Of a stretch of DNA of 64,000 nt, positions 2,391 through 43,475 are shown one piece after another (the stretch's first letter is position 1; each line of letters begins with the position of its first letter). A model generated the notes under the pieces. It was not told where the DNA came from and did not search any database. It worked only from the letters and a program-made list of their open reading frames with translations. The stretch is from Ascidia mentula. Lineage: Eukaryota > Chordata > Ascidiacea > Phlebobranchia > Ascidiidae. A program made the position numbers and the translations under genes. The stretch spans positions 16,807,001 through 16,871,000 of the forward strand of contig OX387199.1 of assembly GCA_947561715.1 (NCBI GenBank), given 5' to 3'.

Positions 2391-2623
2391 TGTTGTGTAA
2401 TTGTATCATTATGTGTCCCAAAGTTGACCTGACAAAACGGCGCTTAAGACTCGCCGTGCAATCAGCGTGTCTGGCAATGCGACTCACGCCTGTGGATGTA
2501 CTGCGCACCTCAGTGGCTAATAATTGCGTTCCTGGCGTTATTTGTGTGTTGGCTTTGCCTATAAAACCTGCGCACCGTTTTGTATCAATACACTTGAACT
2601 GTTTGTGACTGAAGAATACAACA
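2391..2623 (+). repeat. 5' long terminal repeat
   Basis: It starts TGTTGTGTAATTG, ends AATACAACA, and matches 6149-6380 at about 98 percent. CCTATAAAA near 2560 is a TATA-like promoter element in the right place for transcription starting inside the repeat. Confidence 0.95.
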
Positions 2624-2629
2624 GTTATT

Positions 2630-2647
2630 TGGCGACGAGGACGGGAT
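2630..2647 (+). promoter_or_regulatory. tRNA primer-binding site of the LTR element
   Basis: TGGCGACGAGGACGGGAT begins six bases after the 5' LTR with the TGG expected to pair with a tRNA 3'-CCA end. I do not assign the tRNA species. Confidence 0.75.
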
Positions 2648-2655
2648 TTCTGGTC

Positions 2656-3321
2656 ATGGAGAAGCTTGTGGAGATGATGCAACGTCAACTTAAAGCCCAA
2701 GAGCGTCAACGTGAAGTTCAAGAACGTCAACTTGAAGAACAAGAACGTCGACACCAAGAACAACACGGAGAACAAGAACGGCGACACCAAGAACAAATGG
2801 AGGCGATGATAGCAATTCTGGGGAAGCCTCGCTCGAGTGAAGGATCGACGGAAGGAACGGCATCAACGGTAACTCACCTAAATACGCCAAATTTTTTGCC
2901 TTTTGATTCGACTTCAGAGCTGTGGGTTGACTACTGGTCCCGGTTTTGCACGTTTGCCAAAGCTCATTTGGTACCTGACGATCGACTGGCCAAGGTATTT
3001 TTGACGAATCAATCTTCAACGGTGTACAAGATGCTTTTCAATTTGGCTGCACAGGAATCGCCACCAAGAGACATCAATGAGCTCACGTTAGAAGAAATCG
3101 TCCAACATATGAAGTTTCAGTTTGACCCCAAACGTTTCATAGTCCGCGAAAGGTTCAAGTTTTGGACCGACATGAAGCGCAAGCCGGGAGAAACAATTCA
3201 AGAGCTCGCTGTTCGCATTCGACAAAGCGCAGCAACTTGCGACTTTGCATCCATCATAGATCCATTGGATGAAGCTTTACGCACTCGTTTTATCTGTTCA
3301 ATTGAAAACGAGGCGGTTTAA
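2656..3321 (+). pseudogene. gypsy Gag N-terminal and capsid region
   Basis: The start ATG at 2656 is the first in frame after the primer-binding site. The protein opens with a charged coiled coil built from an imperfect QERQ/EEQER repeat, roughly residues 12-45, followed by a capsid-like region with a conserved Trp/Tyr stretch (WVDYWSRF) and FKFWTDMKRKPGETIQELA typical of gypsy Gag. Translation stops at TAA 3319-3321, yet the same frame continues with homologous sequence from 3322, so the stop looks like a nonsense change separating Gag from its nucleocapsid part. Readthrough suppression is possible but there is no specific evidence for it. Confidence 0.85.
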
Positions 3322-4866
3322 AAAGCTCTGTTAAGGACAAAGGATGACGAATTGAGTTTTGCTCGTGCGATTGACATTGCGGTTGAAACCGAAGATGCTG
3401 CCAAAGTGGCTAAAGAAACTGTTTACGGGATGCAGCCATCGACTTCGGTGTTCAAGGTACGTGCTACAGCTAAGCCGTGGGAGAAACGTAAAGTGGATTC
3501 GAGGACGGTGCAATTACCTGAAGGGAGGAAATATTATCGATGTGGCAAGACTTCGCATCAGGCTTCCGAATGTTGTTTCAAGAATGCAACCTGTCATTTT
3601 TGTCACCTAACTGGACACTTGGAATCCGTTTGCCGCAAAAAGATTCGACAGCGCTCGTCCCATGGCGTTAAAAGAATTGAGAAACTGAATTGCGTTTCCA
3701 GTATTGAAGCAGCCACGCCCAAGTTGGAAGTTCCAATTTGCATCAACGATCGTTCGCTGAACATAGAACTTGATACAGCTACCGGCGGAAATTTTCTGTC
3801 AAAAGAAACATGGAAGAAGATTGGTTCTCCACAGCTGCACAAAGCAACGTCCCAGTATCAGTCTGCAAGCAGGCACAACTTGCCGGTAATGGGCACATTT
3901 ACGTCTGCTACCAGTTATGCAGATTCCGGAAAAGTAGCTTACCTTCATTTCAACGTCTGCGACATTCCACGTTTGAATTTGGTGGGGTGGAACGGAATAC
4001 AGAAAATGGGTATTTCGTTGGACAAAGTTCTGTACGGCAAGTCAAGCTTACAAGCTGCAGAGGTATTACAAGCCGTAACCGCTCAAGAACCGCAAGACAT
4101 ATCACTACATGAAGAGTGTGTCAAGTTGTGCAGTGGATTCGCAGAACTGTTTAAGCCCAATTTAGGCTGTCTTCAAGATTATGAACTGGAGGTACAATTT
4201 AAGGACGACGCAAAACCAGTTTTCTGCAAACCGCGTTCAGTTCCGTTCGCTATGCAGAGTGATTTGTCCCAGGTTTTAGATTCCGGGATAAGCAAAGGAA
4301 TTTGGACTCCAGTGAAGTTCAACGACTGGGGTACGCCAATAGTTCCGGTCCGCAAATCAATCACTTCTTCGCAAAAGCCTGCTTTAAGAATTTGTGGTGA
4401 TTATTCCGTGACTGTCAATTCACAATTGGAAGTTCATCGTCACCCATTGCCATTACCAGAAGATTTAATGCGGAAGTTAGGTGGTGGTTATGGCTTCACG
4501 AAGATCGATTTGGCGGATGCGTACAATCAAATCAAGTTGGGACCAGAAAGTCGGAAGAAGCTTGCTCTGAGCACACATCGCGGAGTTTTATTACAGAACG
4601 TATTGCCTTTTGGTATCAGTTCTGCGCCAGCTTATTTTCAAGAAATTATGGATGATATCACTAAAGACCTACCGGGTGTAGCAGTATATCTAGATGATAT
4701 ATTGGTCAGTGGTTCGTCTGCCAAGGACCACCTTCACAATCGAAACAGTCGGAATGCACGTGCAAATGGACTCCTCAGCACTACGAAAAGAATCTTCAAA
4801 AGACCCAATATTGAGCAAGGTGATTCAATACACGCACGAAGGTTGGCCAAGACAATCTTCCGATGA
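3322..4866 (+). pseudogene. gypsy nucleocapsid, protease and reverse transcriptase, truncated
   Basis: Two zinc knuckles lie near 3540-3645: the second, CHFCHLTGHLESVC, is a perfect CX2CX4HX4C, while the first has lost its leading Cys. A retropepsin-like segment has ELDTATGGNFL. Reverse transcriptase runs from about 4150 with CGDYSVTVN, TKIDLADAYNQI and the catalytic YLDD at about 4687-4698. After VSGSSAKDHLHN the frame runs into unrelated residues and stops at 4866. The thumb and the whole RNase H domain, usually several hundred bases, are missing, so an internal deletion near 4740-4770 joined RT to sequence just before integrase in a different frame. Confidence 0.9.
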
Positions 4867-6106
4867 ACCGACGGAAGAATTCCGGAAAGTGAGTAATTTT
4901 CTCACTACGTCATATGGAGTTCTTATGTATGGCTCCAGAATCGTCATTCCAGCAAAACTACGTGACAAAGTTTTGCAGCTACTGCATTTGGGCCATTTCG
5001 GCATGCAGCGCATGAAGCAACTGGCCAGGACAGTGGTGTACTGGCCAAACATAGATCGAGACATTGTGGACATGTGTCGAAAGTGTGGCACATGTGATGA
5101 GCACAGAAACGTAATGCCGAAGGCTCCCGTACATCCATGGATACTACCCGAGAAGCCATGGAGTCGAATTCATGTCGACCATGCCATAAATTTTATGGGT
5201 TACAACTGGTTGGTTGTAATTGATGCTTATACGAAGTATCCATGCATTCACCGCACTCAAGCAATCACAGCTAAAGCAACAATGGATCTTCTCGACCAAG
5301 ATTTCGCACATTTCGGATATCCACACTCAATAGTGTCCGACAATGCACCATCGTTTACATCGGAGGAGTTCCGAAACTACTGCAAAGAAAGGGGGATTGT
5401 TCACCTTACAGGCGCACCTTATCATCCTGCGACCAATGGGGCAGCGGAGCGCTTGGTGCAAACTTTCAAGAAGGCATTACGAAAGTCTTCTGAGCCGCCC
5501 ATGAACGCATTGAGAACTTTTCTCATGCAATACCGCCGTATACCAAACAGTAGCGGATACTCCCCAAGTGAATTTTTAAACGGAAGGCAAATACGAACAA
5601 AGATTGACACCATGATGCCTTCTCCAGTACATGATGTCCAGAAAAAGCAGTTGCAAGGAGTTAAACACGGTGTTTCCACTACACGCGTTAACAGGACATA
5701 CAACGTCGGTGATCCTTGCTATGCACTGTATTACGGACCACGGCATGACAAAGACCCACGATGGGTTCCCGCACTGGTCATCAAACGTTGCGGAAGTCGA
5801 AGTGTTCGGGTTACAGTTATTCCCCGAGGTGCGATATGGAGACGACATATTGACCAACTTCGACCCAGATATGCATCATCACAAGATGACGAGCCAGGAG
5901 ATGAACCAGCAGATCTCCCAACATCACGCGATGCATCCGATGATGAAGAGTCCGGTCGTGCCGATACGCGCGACACGGTCACCCCTGAGACTATCGTTAG
6001 TCCTAACAATACTCATTCACCTGCGGCGCAGGAGTTGTCACACGGGGAGAGTTTACCCCGGCGCTCGAAACGGCGTCCGAAGCCTCCCAAATTTTATGGT
6101 TATTAG
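4760..6106 (+). pseudogene. gypsy integrase and C-terminal tail
   Basis: The frame open to 6106 holds a zinc-binding HHCC region (HLGHFGMQR, later CRKCGTCDEH) and an integrase core with the DDE signature: Asp in HVDHAINF, Asp in VSDNAPSF and Glu in NGAAERLVQTF. A basic C-terminal region follows (PRRSKRRPKPPKF). The core looks intact, but the frame differs from that of the reverse transcriptase upstream and has no own start, so it would not be made as part of the usual polyprotein. Confidence 0.9.
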
Positions 6107-6138
6107 TGTCATTTTACGTTGTTCCATAACCCAATATT

Positions 6139-6148
6139 GGCGGGGAGG
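6139..6148 (+). promoter_or_regulatory. Polypurine tract of the LTR element
   Basis: GGCGGGGAGG directly abuts the 3' LTR, the standard place for plus-strand priming. Confidence 0.8.
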
Positions 6149-6380
6149 TGTTGTGTAATTGTATCATTATGTGTCCCAAAGTTGACTTACGAAACGGCGC
6201 TTAAGACTCGCCGTGAAATCAGCGTGTCTGGCAATGCGACTCACGCCTGTGGATGTACTGCGCACCTCAGTGGCTAATAATTGCGTTCCTGGCGTTATTT
6301 GCGTGTTGGCTTTGCCTATAAAACCTGCGCACCGTTTTGTATCAATACACTTGAACTGTTTGTGACTGAAGAATACAACA
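6149..6380 (+). repeat. 3' long terminal repeat
   Basis: Matches the 5' copy with about four substitutions and one single-base gap, and is followed at once by the AAATG target duplication. Confidence 0.95.
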
Positions 6381-7402: not shown

Positions 7403-10400
7403 ATGACTACTCCACAAGACCGTGACACAGGATCAATAAATGATGGTCACAACAAAAACCTGATTGATTTCAAAACTGTAAAAATATGCCCTCCAGCATC
7501 AGTAACTAATCGTTTACACAAAAAACATTGCAGGAAGTTCATCGGCCACGCTGAGGATCCTCAACTTTGCAAACATCGGAAACTCTGCGAAACAAAAGCA
7601 TTATTCCTATGTCAAAATTCTGCGACGGTTTTATTGATTGCAAGAATCAAGCTGACGAATATCCAAAAGAAATCTGCAAGGAAGGAAGATTCTACTGCCC
7701 AGAATTTAATGCAGCTAAAGTAAAATGATTTCTTGTAATCAATGATTTAAAAAGAATTTAATTCGGGACATAGTTGGAGTAAAATCACTTTAAATCTGAA
7801 TTTTAACTAAAAAAGGCAACTATTGGTTGTCATAATTCTCCCTGTTATGATACAATAATCATTCGTATGCAGCAGTTGACTAGAAAAACAGTTACAGTTT
7901 TTTCCATGATATTATTGTTTTTGTGACAGATACATGCATAAAAATAAACTAGACGACCGAGAAATTTTGTGAAATTAGATTTCTATCAACAAATCGGATG
8001 TTTGTGATTTCACAATTAACTGCGATGATCAAAGTGACGAAATAAACTGCACAAATGATGGAAGGTTTTATTGCGAAAACAAACAACCACTCTTCGTCAA
8101 GAAGGAAAAGGTAAACACATAAGTTTTATGTTCTGTGGAAAACATGTACTTGAAAGTCGTGCAGGACGGTGCAAGATCTCTCAAAACTGCTGCTCTGAAA
8201 GTGTTACAATCGATTTAGAAAGACCCTTTCACTGTTTGTTTGGCACCAATTTTTTTTCCTTGGCCTGCGTGCCCGTCTAAGCGCGTGGCCAAATGTGCAA
8301 ATCGGTCAAATTTAATAAATAAGAAAGGGTCTTTACAAAAGGGCCTTTCGAACTTTTTCCCAGTTTGGCTTTAATACTCAAAAAGTTTGAGAATCACTGT
8401 CGTTTACCTCAATTGGTCCCACGTTTCAACGCGACCTGGCCTTCAATCCCAACCACGGTAAACGCTCAGTTGACTCTGCACTAACCGCTTACCGACAAAA
8501 TATAAAAAGAAGCGAACGGAAGAGGCGGCTACTTTTTAAATTAAATTTAATGAAGCCCAAATTAAAAAGACAAAACCACTTTAGTTTCAGTGCGACAACT
8601 TGCACTAATCATGTAAAACGAACAATTACGCTTTCTTTATTTCAAAGCCAACAGCCACATCTCAACCGCTTGCGACCATAAGGGAACTGCCAATTCACAA
8701 ACAGATTATCATTTCTGCTGCCAGCATCCTGTCCAAACAGCGCGTTTTTGCATTGACCGAATTAACTGCAAAGGTATCTTAAATTTATTCCACGCAGAAA
8801 TTCAATGGAGTTGGCGACTGCTCTGATTGGTCGGACGAGTGTCCAACAAAAACAAAAGCGATCAACGAAAACATATTTTCATCACGATACGAGTTGATTG
8901 CAAACCCATTTCTGCGAGCTATTGTGTGGATAATGGGGATGCTCGCCATTGCCGGAAATTTGGTAAAATTAACCTACTTTCTTCTGGCCTTTTAGACAAT
9001 AAGATGATGTCATTATATTTTAATATTGGGAATTTGAGGTTGTCATGGTGATGGAAAGCAGAATATTGGTAACGACAGAATCACAATCTGCTGCATTTCG
9101 CACAAACCATCTGCTCGTTTTGAATCTATCTGTTTCCGATCTACTCATGGGAGTTTATCTGATCATGCTGGGCGCCGCTGGTTTCAGATACTCCGGAAAT
9201 TATTGTGCCAATGACGTTATTTGGAGATCAAGCGAAAGTTGCACCACAATGGGGGTATTGGTTTTGCTTTCCAGCGAAACATCGGTGTTCACAATGGTTT
9301 TGTTGACCATATTCCGACTGTATGCAGTGAAAAACGTGAGTGGATCAGTTGTAATTGGTTCAACCAACTGTTAAATCGGTGACACACTTTACCTTTTATA
9401 AGTACACACAAATACATTGATTTGTTATATATAACCCAGTATTATTACATGCAATGGCATGCCAGGCAGGATTGCCACACTGCGCAGATCTTTGCTTGGC
9501 GATCACATATAACCTATCGCGATCATGAGGTTTTCAGGCTTGGCAGCTCAGGCAGTGCAGCCTAGCTGGATCAGCCACATTTCCCTGACAAATCGTAGCA
9601 AGATTTGAAAAATCAAGCTCCCGGTGAAGTTTGAACTCACGACCCAGGGCTAACCAGGGCTAACCAGGCCCAACTCTATCAACTGAGCTACAGGAGCTCA
9701 GTGGTTTCACGGGGTATATTGTGGCCAAGATACACTGGTGCGCAAGCGCACAACTTGCTAGGCAACCTTCACATATATGTATGGGATCTCTACCACCGTA
9801 TCAGGTAACGCAGTAATATTACATGCAATGGCATGGCATGGCAGAGCGTTGGGCCTGGTTAGCCCATGGTCGAGGGTTCAAACCTCACCAGGAGCCTGAT
9901 TTTTCTTGACCCGACTTGTCTGGAAAATATGGCTGATCCAGCTAGACTGCATTGCCTGGGCTGCCAAGTCTGAAAACCTCATGATGTTTGTTATATATTG
10001 TAATTATATTAATTTTCTTTAAACGATTTCTCGTTTTTCGGACATCTTTCTCCCCTGTACGCAGCATATAGTTAGTCTGGCATTTCCGCAAATTAAATTG
10101 AAGGCTCTGCTTTGTTTGTAAGCTTAGCATGCCCAAACAATATTGAAACGACGCCCATTTTTTAAACCTCTGAGTAAAGATAGTGGAAACAATTTCCAGT
10201 CCAATGGGATTCGAAGTGACAAGTAAATTTTCCCGTCCCTTGACTTAAGGGGAGGGGCGAGTTTGCAAAATTATTGCTTTAAAAGAAAATATGTGAATAT
10301 CCTTTTGGGTTTCAGCCATTCAATGCATCCTTGAAACCGGAATTGAAAACAGTCATCCTTTCCATTATTCTCTCCTGGGCATTCTCGTTTACAATTGCTT

Positions 10401-11394: not shown

Positions 11395-14126
11395 CTTACA
11401 TTCAGTATTTGGAAAATTGAAAGTGTTATTTCCAGACATTTTCAAAAAACATTTTGGTCTTGACGACTCTAATATCCTATTTAACTTGCAATGGTAAAAT
11501 CAAACACAAAAGTTATATTTAAAATGTCATCTCATCTTAATCTTACACATGACAAAGTAACATCTTGACGCCGGATCTAAGCTGTCCAAACCAACCAAAA
11601 AATAACGCACCATTTGGTTCGTGTGCACACTCCGCTTTGTGGTTCCCCTATTTCTATTGATGACTAGTCCTGCTCTTCGGAATTTGTGCATCATGAGTTA
11701 ATGTACGAGTGACGCGATGAGTTGCTTATACTGGTCGTCCAAGTAGCACGACATGCAACCCATGGACACTCTTATCATGTGTGAGTGTTGGAACGCATGG
11801 CACCAACTGATTCTCCTGGTTCCAGTGACCTCACTTCATTTTGCAAAATCCATCGAATGGCAGCAAACATTCGAGGGCGCCTTTTTCGTCCAAATAAACA
11901 AGCCATCGTTTGAGATGAAGATGAAATCTGACGGCGATGAAATATCTGGACGATCGTTTTGTAAATATGTTGATTTGTCGTTGGAAAGATTCCACGTGAC
12001 CAACACATGGGAAAAAACAATGGACTAAGGAAAATATATCCTTTAATCTTGAAAAAATCACTAAAAAAATTTAAAACACCTCCTCACAACCCCCTCTCTA
12101 ACGCCTTGTACATAAACTGTGTTTATTGTGCGTTATCATGGATTTTATGGATAGGTATGTTTTATTGCAAACAAGATGTTCTGAAATTCTTGCGAGACCC
12201 TTTTCTTCGTCAACGTTGCATTAAATATGCAGCGGCAACACTTTTGATATTTTGTTTGTAGTTTGTTTTTCTAACAACCAATTACTGTTAGTCACTCGAT
12301 GGCGACCAGTTCATTGCCATTGAAATTTTTTAACAGTAATACATTCAATCTTTTTCTAAAATTGATTTGTCAACTGCAGCAGCCCGCTGACTGCGAATAT
12401 TTTTTGTTATCGTTTTCAATAAACCTGGTGTTGTGAGGGTAAAAGTTCTGTATTCTTGAACTTGTGATTAAATCTTATATGAGTTACAAATACCAACCAT
12501 ACTTGATGAGGTTGTTGAGGATTAATAAGAAGTGCAGTTGTCATGAGGAAATTGATTGATTTTAATTTTTTGAAAATTTAAAATATTGATGTTGAATCTT
12601 AAGAGCATTTGCACGATTAACATACCACTTGCTGTCGAAAAACAGTATTTTAACATTATCGATCGAACACATTTATCACCGACAACTTTCCAATGGTGAA
12701 ACGGAACTGCATTAGCAGGGTCCTTACGCTTCGATGGACATACTGGCCGTATTCGCCGTTGTGCGACCGCTCGTTTTTGCTGGCACTGGTGAAAACTTTT
12801 TAGCTTAAATCCCAACCATCTCATATCCTGTGACTTAAGAAGTAAAAGCACAAATGTTTGGATTTGTAATCTGGCGACTCTTATAGGCGACACGGAATTC
12901 GATCAGCGATCACGTGCAGAGAACCATTTGTAACATGCGTCACAGAAACCAATACTTGTATTGCGTAATGTCTTCTGGGCAGCATTGAACAAGTGTAGTA
13001 TAATTCATTTGGTCTGCAGTATCGCATACACATTTACAAGCCAGTTACCATAGGCATTGGATATTTCGCAAGTTTCGACCCAAGTGTAAACATAATCCCA
13101 TAATGTGACCCAAATGATTTATCCATCAAATGTTCTTCATTCAACATCCTGTTTTGTTAGATAAAATGTTCTCCTATGCTTATGTCACACCACACATTTG
13201 TTCTTATGTTACAAACCCAAGTGATGTATAACGTGACTAAACCAACCAATAAGCTTCCGGTAGTCCAAGTATTGATAGTGATGTGGGCCTGTCATTGGGC
13301 TCTTTGCATTCGGCTCAACTCTACTCTATTCGGAGTCATCGTTCTATCTTTGATCTTCTATTCGGTGGCAAGACACTGCTATTATTACTGAGACTCTACA
13401 AGCTATTCGTCGCCTAGGGATTTATTCCAACAGCCTGATAATAAACTGTTTATTCGGATTGTTCGGTTTGCTGGTGAGGAAGTTTAATCACATTTAACCG
13501 AAACACAGAGTATGGCTTCGCATGGTCTCAATGAAACAAAAAGAGGTGAAACCAAACTCATTAGTTGACTGGTGATGGTGGAATGCTCACAAAGTAACAG
13601 TTAGGAAAGTAGGTGAATAGTTGTGTGGTTGCACCTGATACACATCAGACCGTGGAGGGTCATACCAATTAATGCATTGAGCGCAAGAGAAAGTTCCAAT
13701 GCATGTTTATGTGAATGTCGCAGAAATTTAGGAATTAGTGTTTGCATTTGTATGTGTTTAAAGACTAGAACCGTTGGTCTGAATTTGTAAATCTTCCCTG
13801 TACCGACGCTCAGTCAGTCATTGCCTTTCCAATGATGTTAATTGTCTTGGTTTAGTTGGTTATTATGAGCATTGTGTTGTTTGCCTCTCATATATTTGTA
13901 ATTATACATTTATTTCCTCGCAAAACTTGTGTGGTAATTTGAAAAATAACAAACCAAGTATGAATTGTCAACTGTGGTTCATTGCCACAAATTAACGATT
14001 TTGTGATCGATTGACTGCCACGCAGCTACACAAAGTAGGATCGTTGTAAAAACAACAATAAATCAGGTGAAAATATGATTCTTGAAAAGATATTTACCTG
14101 AAGAGACCTTTCTTCGGAGCACAAAA
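11395..14126. other. Intergenic stretch without recognised genes
   Basis: Open frames of 70-120 codons occur (for example 11753-12028 plus and 12522-12893 minus), but they have no signal peptide, domain or splice context and are partly antisense to each other. I see no repeat copy shared with the rest of the window. Confidence 0.4.
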
Positions 14127-14710
14127 TGAAACCATGGTGGGAATCTCTTTGTTCCTACTCGCTAGCTTTGTTGGCAACGGCGACTGAATTGCTTTTTCAT
14201 GAAATGCCGTCACCTGTGTTTCGAACAATTTAAATACAAGCATTCAGTTTGGTCAGTCGGTTGCATTGTTTGTGAATAGAGTGTGTACAGCATGCAAACA
14301 AAAGAGTTTGAATTATTTAATGGATTAGACAGAAGCACAATACAAACATTTGATTTAGCAAATTCGAGAAATGGATCTGATACAACCAAATAGGAAAAGG
14401 AAGACCGTTTCCGATGCTGACAAACAAAACGAAAAGTGTTTCTAATCATTCGGGAAAATCGAAAAATTCGAAACAACTTATCCCAAAACAAAACAAACAC
14501 GCAATCAGCAAAAAAATTGACTTATCAAAACTGAAATCAACTTCAAATGTGTATTTTTGGAGAAATATTTTCTCATTACTCATTTGCTTTATCTGGGTAG
14601 GGTACTTAGCAGTGTTATTAATTAATCAAAGGATAATCTTTTTCTGCAAATGCCAGAACCACAAAATTTGTTGCAGTTACACAAAACCCCATATAATTCT
14701 TATGTGAATA
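14127..14710 (+). pseudogene. LRRC8-like channel pseudogene
   Basis: From ATG 14127 the peptide starts MKPWWESL and continues through a first-helix-like stretch, as in the intact genes at 31649 and 41258, but hits TAA after 35 codons. A second open block at about 14565-14700 encodes LLICFIWVGYLAVLLIN followed by paired cysteines (CKCQNHKICC), corresponding to the third helix and second extracellular loop of the family. The piece between keeps only linker-like sequence; the second helix and the C-terminal part are not recognisable. Clearly a dead copy. Confidence 0.75.
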
Positions 14711-29296: not shown

Positions 29297-29530
29297 GTGC
29301 GTAGTGGTTGAAAATGATGTAAAACGTAGTCAAAGCAAACAGTGTGGATTGAAAAAGTTTGTAAAATTTTGTTATTTCAAGTGTAATCCCGATCAGTGTT
29401 TCTTATAACTCGACAAACAATTTGCTCTGAAGTGACAATTTAGAAAAAAAAAATGCGTCACGTACAATCACGTGACAAGTGACATATAAACGGTTACATT
29501 CCGTATTATCAATATTATCAATATTTTTAC

Positions 29531-30583
29531 CACACTGAAAATCCAACACGTTTCCAAATCTCTTTGGTTTTTTACTGGAGTCACGAAACCCATTTCATCC
29601 CAATCTATACTTTTAGGGATCTCCGCGCTTTCGTTTTCATTACGGTCTTCGGATGCATTTATGTTTTTGTCACCGTTGCCTCCCTCATTCTTGTTACCGC
29701 TTCCGCCAAAACTCCCTACCTCGTTTCCATCCATCTTCTCGACACAGTCCTCAGATCTTTCCACGTTGTGCCCGTCCCCGTAATTCTTGACAGAGGTAAT
29801 TCCTGCCTGGTCGCTGAACTGATTCAAACAAATGCTGTATGTAAACTCTCTGTTCACATATTTCTTATTGTGTTCAGCAACTTTCATTTTATTTTCCTCC
29901 CAAACCTTTTTCCGCCTTTCTTCCTCTTTTTCATTCACGTACGATTTTTCTAAAAATGCAAATACACACAAACTTACCATAGGGTACATCGCATTTCCAG
30001 CAATGGTGCAGTTGTTTCCTCGATGTCTTGCTATCTTTTTGTATCGAGAAAGTTGATTTATTTCGTCGTCGATCCCCCAACCGCAAAAAAACACGAAACA
30101 ACCAACAATATTATCTATCATAGCATGGTAGGATATGCAGATGCTGGTTTGTTACGTTTGATCATACAAGAATAAGATAAAGAAGTTGGACATAGCGAAC
30201 CATCTACTCTAGTACCTATCTTTCACAATCCAGTACTTGTCTTTTCCTTCTTGTTTGGAAGAATCTCTTCCATATCCGACAACCAACACTGCGTGCGCCA
30301 GAGAGTTATCATTTGACTCGTCATATTTACCAGAGTCATAGAAAATATCTGAGTTGCAAGCAGTGTTAATGTGGAGTATTAACACAATGAGTGAAGCGTT
30401 ACCTTCGTAGTTTGTGTGGTTTAGATATTTAAACTTGTCAGAAACCAACAAACTTGCAGCAACCGGACCAACTTGTGAAACAACTGTTTCCAATTCTTCC
30501 TCGTTTCCATAAGGAATTGATTCCCATCCTTGAATTTCTATTTCAACTTTATGTTTGGCCGCTTCTTCCGTTGATTCTGGTTT
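29531..30583 (-). pseudogene. Inverted partial copy of the concatenated cathepsin-like gene
   Basis: Minus-strand exons: 30583-30403, 30348-30216, 30080-29978, 29949-29531. The order is C-terminal half of a C1A peptidase (VGPVAASLLV, AHAVLVVGYG, NAMYPM), I29 propeptide (EEERRKKVWEENKMKVAEHN), an Asn/Gly/Glu-rich linker, then the N-terminal peptidase start with SIDWDEMGFVTPVKNQ and TCWIF. It corresponds to the middle of the plus-strand gene, about 21222-22733, with high identity. The acceptor before TTGGGGG reads GCGG where the other copy has GCAG, so this junction is destroyed. The exon that begins the propeptide (WEAWKEIY) is missing, and no exon follows 29531. A dead segmental copy. Confidence 0.8.
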
Positions 30584-30801
30584 CTGATTGGAAATAAAAG
30601 AGACGTTTTCTCAAACTAAACACTAAAATTGTGGAATGGAGATGTTTCAAATGGAGTGAAATGCATATTTCGTTGTTGTTTTGGCGGTAATGTAAACGTT
30701 TCATTACCGTTGTCTAATTTCACTTTCATGACAAACCTCAACCAGTCATCCAGTGTTCTCTGTCATACAGTTTGGCAGCTAGTGCAGTTTAACATGGGTT
30801 A

Positions 30802-31648: not shown

Positions 31649-32953
31649 ATGTTGCTTAACCAGATTCTGTGGAGAGATATTCTCTCAACTCACAAAATGA
31701 AACCATGGTGGGAATCTCTGCGCACTTTAACAGTGGCGGTTTTGGCAAGTTCAACTTTACTGCTATTTTATAAAACTACATCAAATCCATTAAATTGTGT
31801 TGCTGGTAGTTTTAAGATCGCCGATCAGTATGGACAACCTTTTGCGCGATACGTCAATAGCGAGTGTTTGGTACAGTCATCCAAGTCATTCGTAACAGAT
31901 TTCTGGTGGATTGCAACGTTGTGTTTCGTCATCTTGCTGTTCTTTAATAACTTCTGGGAGTATGTTCCCACATGTGCTAATTCAATTCAGGATTTTAGGA
32001 AGAAGTTTGAATTGTTCGAAGGTTTTGACAAAACTGTAGAACAGCTGATCGACGTGGCCGCGACGTCAAACTCAGCCGAAACACCGGAACTCGAAAAGGC
32101 GGAACGGCTGCGCTGTAGAGAAATTGTTTGTAAGTTTATCACCAACCGAAGCACAGCACAATCGAATAGGACTACAGAACAGCCTTCCACAAGCAATGAA
32201 CGTAATGGTAACAACGCAGACGTCGAAAGTCATGAGGGTTCACCGTTGGATCCAAGTAGTGACCAGAATCAGGATTCCTCGGGAGCGAATGGGCCGACCA
32301 GTTGCAACTTCTTTTCGTTTACAACAATGACCACAAGCCTGTACATTTTAAGAAGCGTTCTGTCAATCTTGGTATGTGTTGTATGGATTTCTTTGTGCTC
32401 ACAATATATCAACATCAGTTCACATGTTAGTGCAGTTAACTGTACTATAAACAATTCTTCCTACACGTGCCGTTACGGGTCATTGCAAATTCCTCATGTT
32501 ATTGCTATTGTGCAAATAGTTTCATTGGTTTTTCATACCTTCAGTCTTACTTGGTCTATTTGTATTGCTGCAAACTGGAAATGTTACTGTGAAATGGACA
32601 TTGAATTTTTTCTAGATCTTTGCTCAGCGCACGGTAACAAAAATCAAGTCAAAAAATTTATAGAAATTAAGAAAGATCTACTTGAAACAGAACATTCGAA
32701 AAACTTATTGAAAAAACTTACGACCAGCCGAGAAGGAGCCGTGATAGCAAAAGACATCGGTTTCTTTCTTTTCTTTTTGAAAGTTTCATCTCCTGAAGAG
32801 TTGGATAAATTTGTGAAACCTTGGCCAGGCCGATTACAAAAATTTGCTGAGTTCAGTGACAGGATTGCTGCACTGGTTAAAGAATTTGAAAGACCTAATA
32901 TACGAGCAGCCACTGGAGATATATATAATTATGGTAATGTTGAGTATCACTAA
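31649..32953 (+). CDS. LRRC8-like (pannexin-fold) channel protein lacking leucine-rich repeats, paralogue 1
   Basis: Single-exon frame of 434 codons. KPWWESL at residues 18-24 matches LKPWWDVF at the start of LRRC8 proteins. Helix 1 is about 23-42, extracellular loop 1 has Cys50 and Cys73, helix 2 about 84-103 ends FNNFWEYVP (LRRC8: SNFWFKFP). A Ser/Asn-rich cytoplasmic loop runs 104-230, helix 3 231-252, loop 2 has Cys265 and Cys274 in NCTINNSSYTCR (LRRC8: DCTV...YRC), helix 4 281-308. A C-terminal helical part 317-410 follows (FFLDLCSAHG, FFLKVSSPEELDKF), then the stop. LRRC8 continues here with leucine-rich repeats; this protein does not. The four cysteines match two of the three LRRC8 loop disulfides. 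Likely a plasma-membrane anion or small-solute channel subunit; function inferred from fold only. An acceptor-like TTCAG lies shortly before the ATG, so a 5'-UTR intron is possible. Confidence 0.8.
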   Translation: MLLNQILWRDILSTHKMKPWWESLRTLTVAVLASSTLLLFYKTTSNPLNCVAGSFKIADQYGQPFARYVNSECLVQSSKSFVTDFWWIATLCFVILLFFNNFWEYVPTCANSIQDFRKKFELFEGFDKTVEQLIDVAATSNSAETPELEKAERLRCREIVCKFITNRSTAQSNRTTEQPSTSNERNGNNADVESHEGSPLDPSSDQNQDSSGANGPTSCNFFSFTTMTTSLYILRSVLSILVCVVWISLCSQYINISSHVSAVNCTINNSSYTCRYGSLQIPHVIAIVQIVSLVFHTFSLTWSICIAANWKCYCEMDIEFFLDLCSAHGNKNQVKKFIEIKKDLLETEHSKNLLKKLTTSREGAVIAKDIGFFLFFLKVSSPEELDKFVKPWPGRLQKFAEFSDRIAALVKEFERPNIRAATGDIYNYGNVEYH

Positions 32954-34282
32954 TGATACGACGAATTATTACTTAGTCATGTCAACCTGTTGGTTTGGAA
33001 ATGAAAACACCTACAAAAAAGCTTACATATATCGAACACAGACTGTAGACCATGTATGTCGAAACGATTACCTGTCATACAGAATACGTTTTGACATATC
33101 ATGTTGCTTTCACTTAAGGGTGATTGTTTGCGACAAACAATGAGAATTTTATCGGCGTAGGGAGAGATTATGCAGTATTTCTGTACGCGTACCTATATAC
33201 ATGCACGTGAATAACCACATATCTACATACCAAAATGCTGTATATTTAATGCTAATCGTTTTAATAAACTATTGAACAAATTTAAAGCCATATACTTGCA
33301 AACAAAATTTCATGAAGTTGGTGATACATTGCAAGTCAAGGTAGAAATTGAATAAATAATAAAAAGCAGTGTTTCAGATTTGGATCAGTGGATAAACTAA
33401 TTCAATTATTAAAAACATTTGTGTTTAGATTTGCCAGGTACTTTTTTAGATTTGCCAGGTACAAATTATTAGGAAAGTTGGCCAGGGTACTTAAACCAAC
33501 ATTAAATTAATACAGACAGAAACCAACATTGCGGCTGCTGCTTCGCAATTAATTTTGATGCAATCGTGCAAAATGTTTACGTTTTTATCAACTTGGAATT
33601 CTCGAGAAATGTTTCGATACTTTTCCACATACATTACCAAATTATTGAGGTGAGCGCTTAACGGGGCAGACCTATACACCCGTTAAGCGCCACGTTCAAT
33701 ATTTAACAATTTAAGGTTTTTGATTGCTTAAGTTCAGGTAGCTATAACTTTTTATCTACAAACGCTAGACTAAAAATTAAAACACAAAAATCATATGGAA
33801 ATTAATACTCTACACAATCATCGCTTTTCCAGTTCAATAACTCCATGTTTTCGAGTAGTTATACCTAAAAATACAACCATCCCTACTAAAACAGCTTCCA
33901 AGCCATAGTACCCTGTATAAAAATGTCCATAACTCCCGAAATTGTGCGAATTTTGAAATAATTCGACTTTTTTCTGAATCAGTGTGAACACCAAGACGCA
34001 ATGAAGCGAAAAAACTGGATCGCTGCATTTGATATTTTTGAGCGACGGTGCTGTCTAGTAAACTGAAATTTTAGGTAGTTTTTTTGGTATAACCTACTTA
34101 TACTGTTAGTAATTGCTTGTAAAAGGGCTTGTAAGCTTTGTTACACAGCTCAGGCGTTTGCTAACTGATAGCAGATGAATTTGACAACACCTCTAAAAAA
34201 AATTTTTTTTTTTTTTTTTTTTTTTTTAACTGGTAAGTGTATGTCAGCAAGTTGATGAAAAAGAGTGCATAACATCAATATA
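32954..34282. other. 3' flank and AT-rich spacer
   Basis: AATAAA near 33262 could serve the upstream gene. TAGATTTGCCAGGTAC is directly repeated within 33424-33461, and a run of 25 T lies at 34203-34227. No coding exon recognised. Confidence 0.5.
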
Positions 34283-35244
34283 TAGTGATAATTGAATTGA
34301 CAAGTCTTCTACCAGTGCATATAAACCTTTTCCACAACATAAAAGAGACAATGTATAAAAAAGACAAGGAAAGAATCAGCTGTATACATTTGAAACTACC
34401 CTAGTTACTGGGTGACGCCCACCGCCACACCCACATGTGTTTGATTCTTGAACAAATTGCATGAATATGCTTCCATATATGATGCTTTGACAGCAAATTA
34501 TGCATCAGAGATGTGACTGTGACATGACCAAATCATCATCATGGAACTTTTTGTGGATATGTTGTGGATATACCCTTCCGAGAACAATTGGCGATTGTTA
34601 TGCAAAGAAAAGAATGTGAATAATTGAATAAACAAGTCAACTACCAGTGTATAAGCCTTAGTCACAACGTTACATAGACACTCTGGAAAAAAGACAAGGA
34701 AAAAATCAGTTGTATGAAATTGAAGCGACCCTATTTACTGAGTGACGCCCACATCCACATGTGTTTGATTCTTGAACAAATTGCATGAATATGCTTCCAT
34801 ATATGATGCTTTGACAGCAAATTATGCATCAGAGATGTGACTGTGACATGACCAAATCATCATCATGGAACTTTTGGATATGTTTTGGATATACCCTTCC
34901 GAGAACTATTGGCGATTGTTATGCAAAGAAAAGAATGTGAATAATTGAATAAACAAGCCAACTACCAGTGTATAAGCCTTAGTCACAACATTACATGACA
35001 CTCTGGAAAAAAGACAAGGAAAAAATCAGTTGTGTGAAATTGAATCGACCCTATTTACTGAGTGACGCCCACAGCCACACCCACATGTGTTTGATTCTTG
35101 AACAAATTGCATGAATATGCTTCCATATATGATGCTTTGACAGCAAATTATGCATCAGAGATGTGACTGTGATATGACCAAATCATCATCATGGAACTTT
35201 TGGATATACCCTTCCGAGAACCATTGGCGATTGTTATGCTAAGG
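34283..35244. repeat. Tandem repeat, about three units of about 325 bp
   Basis: The landmark GCATGAATATGCTTCCATAT recurs at about 34459, 34783 and 35109, giving periods of 324 and 326. Each unit contains CACATGTGTTTGATTCTTGA and CATCATCATGGAAC. Unit 1 is more diverged at its start and unit 3 is shortened at its end. No open frame spans it, so it is a minisatellite or satellite-like array. Confidence 0.9.
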
Positions 35245-35527
35245 AAAGAATTACTCAATTGTCTATTGTTAGGAAGCAAAACCAGTGTTATGGAACCAAA
35301 ATAAAAACCTGTAACTAAAATAAATGAAGGTTTTCTCCTTTTTTTGTAAATTGGAGTTTTTTTTGGCTTCGGCAAAAAAAAAAAATTCTTTCTTTATTTA
35401 TTATAATTTTTATTATTATTTTTTTTATACTGCACCCTCGTAATGTTTATTTTATGTTATGTACATTTCTTCCTGCTATTTTGTTGTTTTGTACGCAAAA
35501 AATACAGCAATCCCACCAGTCTAAATT

Positions 35528-36262
35528 ACCAGAGGGATGTTAGTTGACAAAAAAAAAATCGCCAGTTAACAAAAGTTTGAACGCGCGTGACTCGGCCGCC
35601 TTACGAGGTAGCGACTTACTTTTTTCACACAAAGATAGATCACAGGCTGAACTTTCCAACAAAACAAAAATCAAAAAAAATTTCCATTAATATTCGAATA
35701 TGAATATGATATGTTTGCTATGGCATAACCATAAGTAAACATCGATTCCCGATGGAATCCTTAAGGGTAGATATTCTTTGGTGTCTGTACTATCTAAAAA
35801 TAGTAAACTTTTTCGCGAGAAAAAACGCGCGCCCTCTCAAATTTGAAGAATATTAACCATAACCCCCACATTTTTCAACGCTCTGCGCTCGCCGCGAAAG
35901 GTAACAAAAAAAATCGCCAGTTAACAAAAGTTTGAACTTGTGTAACTCTGCCATCTTAAAAGCCAGCGACTTACTTTTTTCACACAAAGATAGATCACAG
36001 GCTGAACTTTCCAACAAAAGAAAAATCAAAAAAAAATTTGCATTAATATTCGAATATGAATATGATATGTTTGCTATGTCATAACCATAAGTAAACATCG
36101 ATTCCCGATGGAATCCTTAAGGGTAGATATTCTTTGGTGTCTGTACTATCTAAAAATAGTAAACTTTTTCGCGAGAAAAAACGCGCGCCCTCTCAAATTT
36201 GAAGAATATTAACCATAACCCCCACATTTTTCAACGCTCTGCGCTCGCCGCGAAAGGTAACA
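35528..36262 (+). repeat. Left terminal arm: two tandem copies of the ~350-bp TIR unit
   Basis: The block ATCGCCAGTTAACAAAAGTT through CGCGAAAGGTAACAAAAAA occurs at about 35551-35908 and again at about 35913-36262 with near identity, including GAATATGAATATGATATG and AACATCGATTCCCGATGGAA. Confidence 0.9.
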
Positions 36263-36361
36263 AAAAATACTTGTCCGGCTGACTGTCATATACTTGAACT
36301 GTATGGTTATTTAAAGAGAAAATATTTGAAACTGTTATCCAATGGGTACTACGAACATTAA

Positions 36362-39300
36362 TTATTTGGATAAACTTATTTTGTGGGGTGTACGTCGGTA
36401 CCCTATCCATTGCACGTAGTACGCCAACGTGCTCTGCAAACCGTCGATCCCTGGGAACTGGTTAAGTAATATGCACTGCGCCGCATCTATATGTTTGTCA
36501 CTAAGCCAAACATTTTCTGTCGAAAGCTCCACGTAATCTGAAGTATTCATATAATTTGCCGCTTCCATTTTGCGCGCGCAGCACCGCCGTGCCAAACTAT
36601 TTGGATCCAGCTCGATTCTACACGCGTGACTTCCTGTTTTTTCTGATGATTTGCTGGGAGCACGCAAAGCTTTGGTGGGAGTTTGAAAGTATCTTCCTAT
36701 ACTTTTGTCCGTCCCAACAACCTTTGCCTTCTTCCCCCATCTCTCCTCGACCTCAGCTTCCTGTCTAACGCGTTTGCGCTTGGGTTTTCGGCGGTACCCA
36801 CTGTCCATAAACTCAACTATAAGCGCTTTATGTTTGTCGTCGTACATTTTCGCAAATTCGTGCAGTCCGTTAAGCTTCCTGCCGTTGAACCGAGTCCGCT
36901 TTAATTCCTGTTGACTCTTTTCCATGATTCCCTGCGTGCGATTATCGGCGAGCAACGTTTGTCCAACTCCGCGTTGTTGGACTTTTTGAACGTATTTAGA
37001 ATACACGCGGTACGGTTCACTACTTCCGTGACGACCTAGATCCCCCAACAGTAAAGCGCTCCACAGAGGTATTTTCGGAAGGAAATTTTCGGAAAATTTG
37101 TTTATGAATTCGGGACAATAAAAATCATTTTTAATTGAAAAGGAATGGGTGACATTTAAATTAGCCCGGTTAATCACTTGTCCAAAATGGTCTTTAAATG
37201 GATTGTCGGTGGTGGTTGTGGAAAAGGTATCGTCAATGTCTTCTACATTTTCAGTTAAATGAATTGTTGGGTCAACATTTTTGCGCTTTATTTTATCATT
37301 TAACAAATCCCAACTGGTTTTAGCTTGGTTTGCGTCTTTTGAATTATAAAGCAAAGTCATGTGGCACAAAATTTCTTCAATTTCCTTCAAACCCTCTGCG
37401 GCTACTAACAAACCAACGATAAACATCGATTCGGCGCGACGCTTTTTAACTAATCCGCATAATTGCTTCAAATTTTTCATTATATGACTGTTACATAAAT
37501 GAAGGAACGGCTTCTGATTTAACTGTCTGTCACTTGCTTCTCCCGATACGACCGCGTAACACCGTTCTATATAAGCGTGGAAGTCCTCAACCATATACTC
37601 AACTAAAATTGAACGAAATAAGGGAATTGAACGAACGAATAAGCGCCATTGAACTATCGCACATTATAAGTTTTACGTTCGTTTTACCGATGTATTTATT
37701 TTCGTCGCTTTTATAGAGTTTTAAAAATTGCGAAATTGATGCGATATTATGGCGGTTTGTGACGTACGTTGCCACAGCTAACGGCGCTTCTCCTTTGTTG
37801 GGGTTTCTAACAACTATTTCGTAAACGTAAAAATGCGCATCGTTACCGCGGTTTTTAATCACGCTGCCGGTTGCGTCTATGTACATTATATCACGTTTAG
37901 TGCGTTCGTGGAAAATCTCTAACGTCTCTTGCGACCACAGCATGATACTGGGAGTCGAAGTGACATGCTGCAACGTTCCGCCCAACTTTCCTTTCACCGC
38001 AACGCCGTCGACCTTTTGTTCATTCTGCATAATCGCAAGCGCTTCTAATTCCTGTTTGGACGGGACGCCTATCCTGATCGCAGCGTTTCGAGCCTTTTTT
38101 AACACCTCCTTGGATGGCGCGTCATCCCTATTTCCTGATTCTAAGACGCCAGGTTCATTTTTTTCGAGCATACCAAGGTACGTTAAGCGGGGGCAATTAT
38201 TCGTTACAAGTTGTTTTAACTTTTTCCAATCTTGAACCTTTTAAATGGGTGGATTTTGTTGTTCCTGTTGGATGAACAGGAATTGATGAATAGTTTACTG
38301 TAAAATATTTTTTATCCAAACAAACCAAGTCGATAGATGCCACACAGTGACAAGTCCCAAATGTGCACCGAAATTTGCTGTGAAAAAAGCGGCCCGTTTT
38401 TTGCTTGACATACCATCTTTGCTCCTTTGCCGCGAAAGAACAGTACGGATTACTGTCCTTCAATGCGCGTCGAATGATTTCCGGCCATTCCTTTCCTGTA
38501 CAATATCTACCTTTAATACCTTTACTAATATGATCGAAATCGTCCGTAGTTAAAGTAAAACTTGCACTTTGTGCGAAAGTGCTTGGAGACCAATGCGCTT
38601 CGCGTTTTAAACTAGAAAACTCATCAACATCGCATCCGTCGCTATCATCGCGCACATCAGTCAAACCTGTTACCTGTTCCCCCTCAGATTCCACCGGTTC
38701 CGAACATTCGCGATTCGCAAAACAAACATCAGCATTATCCACGTTATCTTCACCTCTTTCACCCTCGTCGCTTACACAGGGGGGATTTATGTCGACAAGA
38801 CTACGCTCAACATTGGATTGATGTTTAAATATTTCGTCAGATATTACTTCGCCTTTAATATTGTTTTCGGTTTTACCACCAACATTACAGTCGCCGAACA
38901 AATCGCGACAATATTTTATTTGTTCTTTATGTTTTGCCCAGAAGTATTTTAGTTTTCGAATCGTGTTATCGCGTTTTTTTTTAGACATGGCTTCGGAAAA
39001 AAAATGCTTTATCAATACATGCCATGACGAGGGGGTGTGAGGGTCAAATGAAGTGTACGTGGATAATGCTGACACAAACATGTCTACCGTTAGGTTACCT
39101 CGAGCTTGTCCTTTTGCGCACTTCGAAAGTGGAGCGGGGTATCTTCTCGAACTCTCGTACTCTCTCGACGGCGACACGACCTTTTCATCATCGAGGCTTT
39201 CCCTCCTCGAACCCTCGCACTTCCTCGACTTGGATGGGGAGTTGGCGTTCTTGGCATCGGGAATTTCCTTCCGTGTGAACTTCATCCGTGGTGATGCGGT

Positions 39301-39432
39301 CTTCTTGGCGTTGGGACTCTTCTTCCGCTTCCTCTTCGTACACTTCTTCAGCGGGGTGATGATATTCCCGGCGTCCTCAGGTGTTTGGATGGTCATCTCG
39401 GTGTCCTCAGATTTTGGGCTGTGCTGAAACAC
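36362..39432 (-). pseudogene. Transposase (DDE type with Ulp1-like C-terminus), frameshifted
   Basis: Three minus-strand frames follow each other: 39432-38197 (411 codons, basic Ser/Lys-rich N-terminus, then a DNA-binding-like part with RFFHSKFRCTFGTCHC), 38171-37599, and 37594-36362. The middle frame holds IMYIDATGSVIKNRG and KLIMCDSSMALI, giving two of the acidic catalytic positions; the last begins with a conserved CNSHIMKNLK block and ends with WLSDKHIDAAQ followed by LNQFPGIDGLQSTL, the start of a Ulp1-like protease domain found at the end of some animal transposases. Each junction shifts frame by one base, and the protease domain is cut short, so it is inactive unless unseen introns restore frame. 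Confidence 0.75.
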
Positions 39433-39441
39433 CTTCTTTTT

Positions 39442-39925
39442 GTTGGAAAGTTCAGCCTGTGATCTATCTTTGTGTGAAAAAAGTAAGTCGCTGGCTTATA
39501 AGATGGCAGAGTTACACGCGGCCAAAGTTTTGTTAACTGGGAATTTTTTTGTTACCTTTCGCGGCGGGCGCAAAACGTGGAAAAGTATAGGGGGTTATGG
39601 TTAATATTCTTCAAATTTGAGAAGCTTTCCGTTTTTCCTCGCGAAAAAGTTTGATATTTTTAGATAGTATGGACGCCAAAGAATATCTACCCTCAAGGAT
39701 GTCAACGGAAATCGATGTTTACTTATAGTTATGGCATAGCAAACATATCATATTCATATTCGAATAATAATGCAAATTTTTTTTTGATTTTTCTTTTGTT
39801 GGGAAGTTCAGTGATCTATCTTTGTGTGAAAAAAGTAAGTCGCTACCTCGTAAGGCGGCCGAGTGACGTCCGTTTAAACTTTTGTTAACTGGCGATTTTT
39901 TTTTGTCAACTAACATCCCTCTGGT
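39442..39925 (-). repeat. Right terminal arm of the DNA transposon
   Basis: Reverse complement of the left arm: one complete unit (outer) and the first part of a second (inner), with more substitutions than between the two left units. Confidence 0.9.
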
Positions 39926-40028
39926 GCTTGAAGCTCAGTTTTAAAAGCAAATGACTTGTATTTCACTTTTTGCCGAAACAGTTGGTAAGCATCTTTTCAC
40001 TATAATGTACAACATCAGTGTTGATTTC

Positions 40029-41258
40029 TCATGAGGTTGATTGAATAATATCGGAAATCATAGTTTTTACTTTTTCGTAATTCTGTAGTTCTTCCGGCCA
40101 TTTTCGCACAAAATCATCCAGACCCTCACGATCTACCTTTGCGTAAAATCTGAAAAAACTCTTATCATTCGCTTTCACTCCTTTTTCGCGATTTTTTTTT
40201 AGTTCTTGTTTTAATAAAGCTTCGGTGGTCTTATTTTGAAGTTCTTTCTGAGTTTCTTTGAATTTGTCAACTCGTCTGGTGTCACCATGGGCCGAGCAAA
40301 TTTTTAAAAACAAATCTTGGTCACTTACACATGTACTGTTGTAACCCGCTGCTAACACCCCTATAAGGTGAAGCAGTACAGCGCTTGTTTGTACTGAAAT
40401 AGTAACCAAATATATGTTGCGGGACGTGTAGGCGCAAGTAAATTTATGGCCTATAACGGAACAATCAAATGTGCATGACACCTTAGTAAAGTAATGCACA
40501 ATCGATACGCCCAAGACACACAGCCATCCTACACAAATCAAACCAGACATATAATTTCTTATCTTGTAACAAAGTAACGTAATTTTTCCATCTTTTGACG
40601 CACATGTTGTGGCCTCAGAGCTTTGCTGGTTATGAGCAAAAAGTGGTTGATCTTCTGATGAAGTCGATTCGTAAGATGGAACAGAACTGCTTGCCAAACC
40701 GGTTTGTTCGTTTGGTTGTGAGGTAGTAGGAGATTGGTCACTTTTCGGTGATTCCAGAATGCAGCAGAACATAGAAACAATTTCTCTATACAATAGACGT
40801 TCTGTCTTTTCGTGTTTTGGCGTTTCTGTGTCGCTTATGGTTGTTGCTGTTAAAATTATTTTGCTTACTTGTTCATCCAGATCCTCAACCAATAGCATTT
40901 TTTTAGAAAATGACAGGATAGAACTTGCACACCTAGGAACGTATTCCCACCAATTGTCAGCGACATATAAAACAGTACAAAGCACGAATCCAATCCACCA
41001 GGTGTTCATTATAAAATATTCCTTTGCACGGTCTACACACTGGTTGCTAACAAACTTTTCTACTGGCTCATCATAGGACTGGTTGAATGAAAAATTTTCG
41101 GGAACACAAACTATTCTCTTTGCTGTGGTTTCATAAAAGAATAAAACGCTTATCGTTCCCAAGACACTTAGTGAAAAAGATCGAAGTGATTCCCACCAAG
41201 GCTTCATTTTTTCTGCGGCAAGCAGATCTCTCCACACGAAAGAATTTTCAAACAACAT
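40029..41258 (-). CDS. LRRC8-like (pannexin-fold) channel protein lacking leucine-rich repeats, paralogue 2
   Basis: Single-exon minus-strand frame. An upstream ATG at 41360 is in frame, but 41258 is chosen because it aligns with the start of the plus-strand paralogue (MLFENSFVWRDLL versus MLLNQILWRDIL), giving 409 residues. KPWWESL is followed by helix 1, loop-1 cysteines (RIVCVPENF and SNQCVDRAKE), helix 2 ending NWWEYVPRC, a Ser/Gln-rich cytoplasmic loop, helix 3, loop-2 cysteines (CTFDCSVIGHKFTC), helix 4, and the C-terminal block FLKICSAHGDTRRVDKF with FVRKWPEELQNYEKV before the stop. No leucine-rich repeats follow. Loop 2 carries an extra Cys compared with paralogue 1. Expected at the plasma membrane as a multimeric channel subunit; substrate unknown. 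Confidence 0.8.
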   Translation of the reverse strand: MLFENSFVWRDLLAAEKMKPWWESLRSFSLSVLGTISVLFFYETTAKRIVCVPENFSFNQSYDEPVEKFVSNQCVDRAKEYFIMNTWWIGFVLCTVLYVADNWWEYVPRCASSILSFSKKMLLVEDLDEQVSKIILTATTISDTETPKHEKTERLLYREIVSMFCCILESPKSDQSPTTSQPNEQTGLASSSVPSYESTSSEDQPLFAHNQQSSEATTCASKDGKITLLCYKIRNYMSGLICVGWLCVLGVSIVHYFTKVSCTFDCSVIGHKFTCAYTSRNIYLVTISVQTSAVLLHLIGVLAAGYNSTCVSDQDLFLKICSAHGDTRRVDKFKETQKELQNKTTEALLKQELKKNREKGVKANDKSFFRFYAKVDREGLDDFVRKWPEELQNYEKVKTMISDIIQSTS

Positions 41259-42830: not shown

Positions 42831-42929
42831 GCGGGACCAAGTGCTGATGTGGACCTGGTCCGCAAGCAACGATTGTTGATAATGCAACGCGAGAGCAATC
42901 GATGCAGATCCTGCGGCCGATTCATCCAG

Positions 42930-43240
42930 ACCTTTACAATCTACCTTTGCGAAAAATCTGAAAAAACTCTTATCATTCTCTTTCACTCCTTTTTCACGAT
43001 TGTTTTTTTATTTTTAAGTTCCTTCCGAGTTTCTTCGAATTTGTCAACACGTCTGGTGTCACCGTGGGCCGAGCAAATTTTTAAAAACAAATCTTGGTCA
43101 CTTACGCATGTACTGTTGTAACCCGCTGCTAACACCCCTATAAGGCGAAGCAGCACAGCGCTTGTTTGTACTAAAATAGTAACCAAATATATGTTGCGGG
43201 AAGTGTAGGCGCAAGTAAAATGATGGCTCATAACGTAACA
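42930..43240 (-). pseudogene. Fragment of LRRC8-like paralogue 2
   Basis: Nearly identical to about 40110-40455: FTCAYTSRNIYLVTI, helix 4, FLKICSAHGDTRRVDKF, then a frame change and NDKSFFRFFAKVD. Everything before the second extracellular loop is missing. A recent partial duplicate, same strand, about 2.8 kb from its source. Confidence 0.85.
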
Positions 43241-43475
43241 AGCAACAAATATTTGCACATGTAGGCTATGTACGTTTCGTTCGTTTTTCGTCACAGTTTG
43301 ATAACCACTTGCAGTGTTATCGTTTTGCTGGCACAGATGAAAAGTGTGTGGAAGAAATGCCAACCTTTACTGAACCTGTTGCCGAAGAAGCGACCACATA
43401 GATCCTTGGAGTTGTGTTTTACATTCTTCATCAAAATGTATAGTTTATAAGTCACAGAAAAACGGATCTTTCAAA

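Follow-up and report, generated by a model that had tools for sequence, protein, structure and literature searches.

LRRC8A-E are subunits of volume-regulated anion channels, which are hexamers or heptamers activated by swelling; each joins a Pannexin_like region (Pfam PF12534) to C-terminal leucine-rich repeats (LRRs), about 15-17 in number. LRRC8-like genes have been reported from Nematostella, and so from outside the vertebrates (PMC9399500). In a search of titles and the first lines of abstracts we found no family of LRRC8 proteins lacking LRRs, in tunicates or elsewhere; most subscription papers lie outside that search, so such a family may already have been reported. Here we describe two genes, p1 and p2, in a 64,000-nucleotide stretch of the genome of the tunicate Ascidia mentula (assembly GCA_947561715.1, contig OX387199.1, below C52, positions 16,807,001-16,871,000; hereafter the window). 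They probably encode subunits of a tunicate-lineage, expanded and LRR-less large-pore channel family of the LRRC8/pannexin superfamily, with an LRRC8-type ancestor from which the repeats were most likely lost.

Two intact genes resemble the pore half of LRRC8 and stop where the repeats would begin

The initial annotation, made from the letters of the window, described two intact single-exon frames, and both are present where it had placed them (Table 1). The two are convergent genes with a mobile-element-like block between them, and their products are 35% identical over 417 columns (pairwise E 6e-81). Hydrophobic stretches lie at all four expected helix places in each protein, with an additional weak stretch at residues 363-381 of p1. 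As had been noted, both share KPWW preceding helix 1 (p1 residues 18-21, p2 residues 19-22) and an NxWEYVP motif after helix 2 (NFWEYVP in p1, NWWEYVP in p2). The loop cysteines had been described as placed as in LRRC8A, which is true in part: C50, C73, C265 and C274 of p1, and C51, C74, C262 (or C266) and C275 of p2, align with LRRC8A C54, C113, C295 and C310, but LRRC8A has two further loop cysteines, C57 and C65 (letters from PDB entries), that have no counterpart in either protein, leaving four of six positions retained. The position of LRRC8A R103, counted back by eye from the common Y-V before the cysteine, is occupied by Q63 in p1 and E64 in p2. N-glycosylation sequons are found at N264, N268 and N269 in loop 2 of p1 and at N55 and N59 in loop 1 of p2.

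Beyond helix 4, the frames continue for 124 (p1) and 103 (p2) residues before the stop, in agreement with the roughly 100 residues first estimated to stand where LRRC8 carries its repeats. Within this tail both proteins have a helix with the pattern D-x-x-F-F-x-F-[FY] (p1 369, p2 365), which by eye matches DFAFMLHL of LRRC8A, just N-terminal of its repeats. The features of the large-pore superfamily, namely four helices, two cysteine-bearing extracellular loops and a helical tail (the tail motif by eye), are present. An NCBIfam scan of four proteins gave zero matches.

The absence of repeats was borne out across the family described below: in Pfam scans at E 5 or 10, LRR families were matched by 0 of 26 family sequences or pieces, and LRRC8A residues 411-559 gave nothing convincing against 264 kb. 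An LRR motif scan of 344 kb found no periodic motif, a result that is uninformative because the scan also missed the first repeats of LRRC8A itself. The lack of any LRR family, together with a tail that stops soon after a D-x-x-F-x-x-F-[YF] helix matched by eye to LRRC8A D371-F396, would also fit descent from an LRR-less sister of the LRRC8 ancestor that never had repeats, as would the presence of pannexin-2 among the PDB matches for helices 3-4 (see below). LRR-bearing LRRC8, however, is said to have been shared by lancelets and vertebrates since the origin of chordates (PMC5064130, PMC9399500), which makes repeat loss the shorter path in a tunicate, and a tree with three outside rows does not discriminate between the two. 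We therefore regard descent from a lineage that preceded the LRR fusion as a real but minor possibility.

The family is likely closest to LRRC8

The initial annotation proposed a search with the LRRC8 N-terminal profile, and Pannexin_like (PF12534) was matched by 6 of the 26 family sequences or pieces. One, L029, passes the curated cut-off (26.6 bits vs 25, E 3.8e-6), and the five matches below it are in register with the model (L034 0.002, L012 0.0038, a piece of L016 0.0046, L007 0.015 and L013 0.019), L012 aligning over residues 18-74 on profile positions 20-77 and L013 over 67-293 on 109-335. Single weak Pfam matches prove little, since unrelated families score alike in the same scans; the weight lies in one family recurring in register.

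A profile of 11 family members matched 22 PDB sequences within an E limit of 10. Sixteen of these were LRRC8 A, C or D (13) or pannexin-2 (3), aligned over their channel regions, and the other six were unrelated and fell on profile positions 138-447, the loop between helices 2 and 3. Conversely, 7 of the 13 tblastn matches of LRRC8A over 264 kb were family copies in register, the two best (0.067 and 0.069) included. When window-wise shuffles were scored, 56 of 4988 reached at least the LRRC8C score with the core profile, compared with 1865 of 4996 for PANX1, which has no signal above shuffles; with other profiles, shuffles scored as high in 147 of 4888 and 16 of 4990 cases for LRRC8C, 28 of 4943 for LRRC8A in one comparison, and 4512 of 4945 and 3040 of 4935 for PANX1. 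Profile-profile alignment gave a probability of 85 (E 6e-6) for LRRC8A/C and of 12 (0.0024) for PANX1; these are single comparisons, with LRRC8 represented by two sequences and PANX1 by one, and so are not quite on a par.

The same data bear on the proposal that these are fast-evolving tunicate relatives of pannexins or innexins that converged on KPWW, with a superficial likeness to LRRC8. Pannexin-2 gave the best channel match in the PDB (0.047, on helices 3-4), ahead of LRRC8C (0.12), and a genome search for innexins, run without a positive control, was empty, leaving the expected tunicate innexin unaccounted for. Against this, neither innexin PF00876 nor the connexin families (E 10 or 5) matched any of the 26 sequences, six of which match Pannexin_like, and PANX1 does no better than shuffles. 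We consider such convergence quite unlikely.

Phylogeny had also been proposed, and a 14-row tree does separate short forms (99/99), long forms (61/78, weak) and LRRC8/PANX1, but with three outside rows and PANX1 on a very long branch the placement of the family is beyond its reach. Genome searches with PF12534 and with LRRC8A residues 1-411 were empty; this does not imply that conventional LRRC8 is absent, because the PF12534 search missed L029, which lies in the same genome and passes that model's cut-off, and so its initial step overlooks diverged members. In sum, the family likely belongs to the pannexin/LRRC8 superfamily, nearest to LRRC8, as far as sequence comparison can tell and short of proof at the level of a tree. 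Since the repeats are absent, we do not file its members as LRRC8 proteins.

p1 and p2 belong to a large family with short and long forms

The genome searched comprises 195.8 Mb in 79 contigs. Matches to p1 were found in at least 102 genome stretches, broken ones included; this is a lower bound, as 97 of 151 candidate stretches were scored. Loci were counted as matches that begin at or before p1 residue 18. Of the 102 stretches, 81 entered the count; the other 21 all start beyond that residue and leave the result unchanged. At least 70 loci were obtained in this way: 48 on C73 (2.585-3.799 Mb), 21 on C52 (10.0-17.83 Mb) and 1 on C67. Short forms of about 400 amino acids are found on C52, and mainly longer forms in the 1.2-Mb array on C73, where 28 of the 48 loci lie in open frames of at least 600 amino acids and the remainder are shorter. 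Between positions 2818443 and 2873021 of C73, seven family frames (six of 761 amino acids, one of 552) have identical scores and are spaced 8,566 bp apart except for one gap of 11,290; these are either very recent tandem copies or an effect of the assembly.

A tblastn scan (threshold 0.01) of 280 kb around the window placed further copies on C52 between 16,759,318 and 16,931,857, with none in the 92 kb before or the 79 kb after. Copies in and near the window are collected in Table 1; other p1- and p2-type copies near the window are broken.

Table 1. Family members in and near the window, with relatives of the decayed copy. Positions without a locus name are those of the window; aa, amino acids.
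Feature	Position	Strand	Description
p1	31649-32953	+	intact single-exon frame, 434 aa; LRRC8-like pore half (four transmembrane helices) and 124-residue predicted cytoplasmic tail, without repeats
p2	40029-41258	-	intact single-exon frame, 409 aa; diverged p1 paralogue
Broken partial p2 copy	42922-43245	-	covers the helix 3-4 region and the tail in a broken frame; 93% and 89% similar to p2 DNA over two stretches
Decayed copy	14075-14704	+	third diverged subtype (KMKPWWESLCSYSLALLATATE...), frameshifted
Relative of decayed copy	L016:1217-1648		broken
Relative of decayed copy	L034:218-1303		open, 361 aa
p1-type copy	L006:2318-3616		open, 93% identical
p1-type copy	L013:3367-4596		open, 410 aa, stop comes earlier
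p2-type copy	L014		open, frame ends early
p2-type copy	L016:6022-7101		open, 360 aa

Of seven of these loci that were examined, six are long, with 726-847+ amino acids inside the extracted stretch, and the seventh is short, with 361. Between the columns of p1 R157 and Y232, the six long forms have 326-381 residues, compared with 21-74 in five short aligned rows, and the long forms thus carry about 300 additional residues between helices 2 and 3. This insert is helical-looking, contains two QLLALRQI-like motifs by eye and has no convincing Pfam match; the C-terminal end of L031 is a GGQSSSGGAAIGQ repeat. The initial annotation had recognised neither the large family to which p1 and p2 belong nor its second architecture, with the long loop.

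Copies spread as DNA and show signs of constraint

In six near-copy pairs, the ratio of amino-acid-changing to silent differences (pN/pS) ranged from 0.39 to 0.64 (Fisher p 0.0006-0.032), and in three long pairs it was 0.32, 0.48 and 0.50. These codon patterns indicate purifying selection. The near-identical intact copies, the diverged relatives across the genome and the excess of silent over amino-acid-changing differences together mark these frames as more than chance. The alternative, that the family consists mostly of dead or dying duplicates and that the window copies are functionless relics, draws on the many broken copies, the replaced 5' flanks of p1 and p1_64k, and values in near copies that are moderately below 1, reaching dN/dS (the ratio of substitution rates) of 0.81-0.92 in three near comparisons that include a damaged copy. 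Yet p1 and p2 are fully open, pN is below pS in all six pairs and the long members are clearly constrained, so that we judge this alternative unlikely.

The initial annotation had suggested that the repeats were lost perhaps via retroposition, which the flanking DNA does not support. Common DNA extends from -1647 through the gene in p1_52k and p1_187k and as far as about 4 kb beyond the stop in p1_64k and p1_187k, and p2 and p2_197k have 4 kb in common upstream. Because the flanks that copies have in common exceed 1.6 kb on the 5' side and extend to as much as about 4 kb on the 3' side, the family spread as DNA, by segmental duplication, and retroposition of the family was rejected. In vertebrates, too, one exon encodes the pore half of LRRC8. 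For p1 itself, likeness to all four sisters starts at -3 (window position ~31645) and runs to about 1980-2030; copies 52k, 61k and 187k have long upstream DNA in common, and p1_64k diverges at -15. A separate retroposition of p1 was considered on account of the likeness from -3, yet there is no poly-A at the far end by eye, and the boundary was treated as a rearrangement.

Other features of the window and the genome

Between p1 and p2, three minus-strand frames (36362-39396) are flanked by inverted repeats some 220 bp long (36002-36223 and 39590-39811, 91%). The 36002-39811 block looks like a DNA transposon, and its frames have no convincing Pfam match. At 2524-6158, overlapping frames look by eye like a Ty3-type retroelement with gag, protease/reverse transcriptase and integrase. 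Upstream of p1, at 29468-30610 on the minus strand, are fragments of a cathepsin-like cysteine protease (I29 3.3e-9, Peptidase_C1 2.8e-11); a similar copy lies about 8 kb away in inverted orientation. ARAGORN, with bacterial settings, called a transfer RNA for threonine (ggt) at 9615-9698 on the minus strand, and Rfam had no match within the window. Genome-wide, two Glyco_hydro_6 matches exceeded the cut-off (9.2e-6 and 1.1e-4), which we take to fit tunicate cellulose synthase through its presumed link to GH6. There were 48 connexin matches in the genome (best 3.5e-43), which at this invertebrate-like genome size point to a tunicate: vertebrates and tunicates are reported to have connexins, and lancelets to lack them (PMC6391747).

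Discussion

On the reading that we favour, repeat loss from an LRRC8-type ancestor would most likely have been followed by tandem DNA duplication, with copies arising and dying out. If the proteins behave like LRRC8 and pannexins, six to eight subunits would ring a wide pore in the plasma membrane, with a cytoplasmic N terminus, both tails likewise cytoplasmic, and two conserved disulfides per subunit tying the channel together. The pore would cross a single membrane and let ions and small solutes through. Gap-junction docking seems unlikely given the extracellular N-glycosylation sites (p1 N264/N268, p2 N55/N59), as glycosylation is reported to count against docking (PMC8769644). Strong anion selectivity would not be expected either, because the pore arginine R103, whose mutants in LRRC8A are reported to lose anion preference (PMC9399500), is replaced. 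Without repeats, gating would fall to the N-terminal coil and the helical tail in the cytoplasm, joined by the enlarged loop where the form is long.

Several results weigh against this reading. The kinship to the LRRC8 pore half put forward in the initial annotation is supported for the family, through Pannexin_like matches (one over the cut-off, five below) and PDB matches that are mostly LRRC8 and pannexin-2 but all weak. It is not supported for the window pair taken alone: p1 and p2 have no Pannexin_like match at E 5, so that the lack of a profile match, which the initial annotation named as a refutation, applies to the pair though not to the family. Unrelated families appeared in the same Pfam scans at 0.0015-0.0074. 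The PDB channel matches are weak overall (E 0.047-7.5) and the best PDB match is an unrelated adhesion protein (0.014), while of the earlier profiles a two-row one ranked LRRC8A third (E 4.4) and a ten-row one found no match. Shuffles scored at least as high as LRRC8A in 36 of 4996 cases with the core profile and as high in 165 of 4925 with another. Structure prediction, also proposed at the outset, yielded two models too poor to use (predicted local distance difference test scores of 38.4 from 2 rows and 42.5 from 5 rows); of the 78 Foldseek matches to the first model none reached 0.001, and the best 50 included no channel. When loop residues 141-225 are omitted, two of the six near pairs lose significance, the other four staying below 0.02. 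The upstream DNA of p1 has been replaced, and p1 may lack its sisters' promoter or use another. Finally, LRRC8A without its repeats is reported to be abolished as a channel or mislocalised (PMC9399500), so that an LRR-less form would need compensating changes or be non-functional.

A natural and selected LRR-free family near LRRC8 would offer a test object for the role of the repeats in gating, trafficking and partner binding, and for how the channel and the LRRs were joined in LRRC8 or came apart again. Judging from the long-loop forms, a regulatory domain may occupy an alternative site within the same four-helix frame. One might go further and propose that tunicates replaced a single LRR-regulated LRRC8 system with dozens of LRR-free subunits, short and long, that in the long forms gating passes from the repeats to the roughly 300-residue helical insert between helices 2 and 3, and that mixed assemblies provide a combinatorial large-pore repertoire; this larger proposal we hold to be rather doubtful.

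Compared with known channels, the family shares with the pannexins (PANX1-3) and innexins a four-helix large-pore topology, loop cysteines and the lack of repeats, and its profile matches pannexin-2 on helices 3-4. It differs from them in that PANX1 is without KPWW and no better than shuffles, and in that none of the 26 sequences scanned matches PF00876; we take KPWW as typical of LRRC8 and not of pannexins from the letters of LRRC8A, LRRC8C and PANX1. With LRRC8A-E it has in common four helices, the first preceded by KPWW and the second followed by NFW-x-x-x-P, as well as four of the six loop cysteines and the lack of an insert between the C113-type cysteine and helix 2, as seen in a gapless 49-residue match. 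In contrast to LRRC8A-E, to which overall identity is about 19%, p1 and p2 are without the repeats, C57, C65 and R103 and have a much shorter first extracellular loop, and the long forms carry their additional residues between helices 2 and 3.

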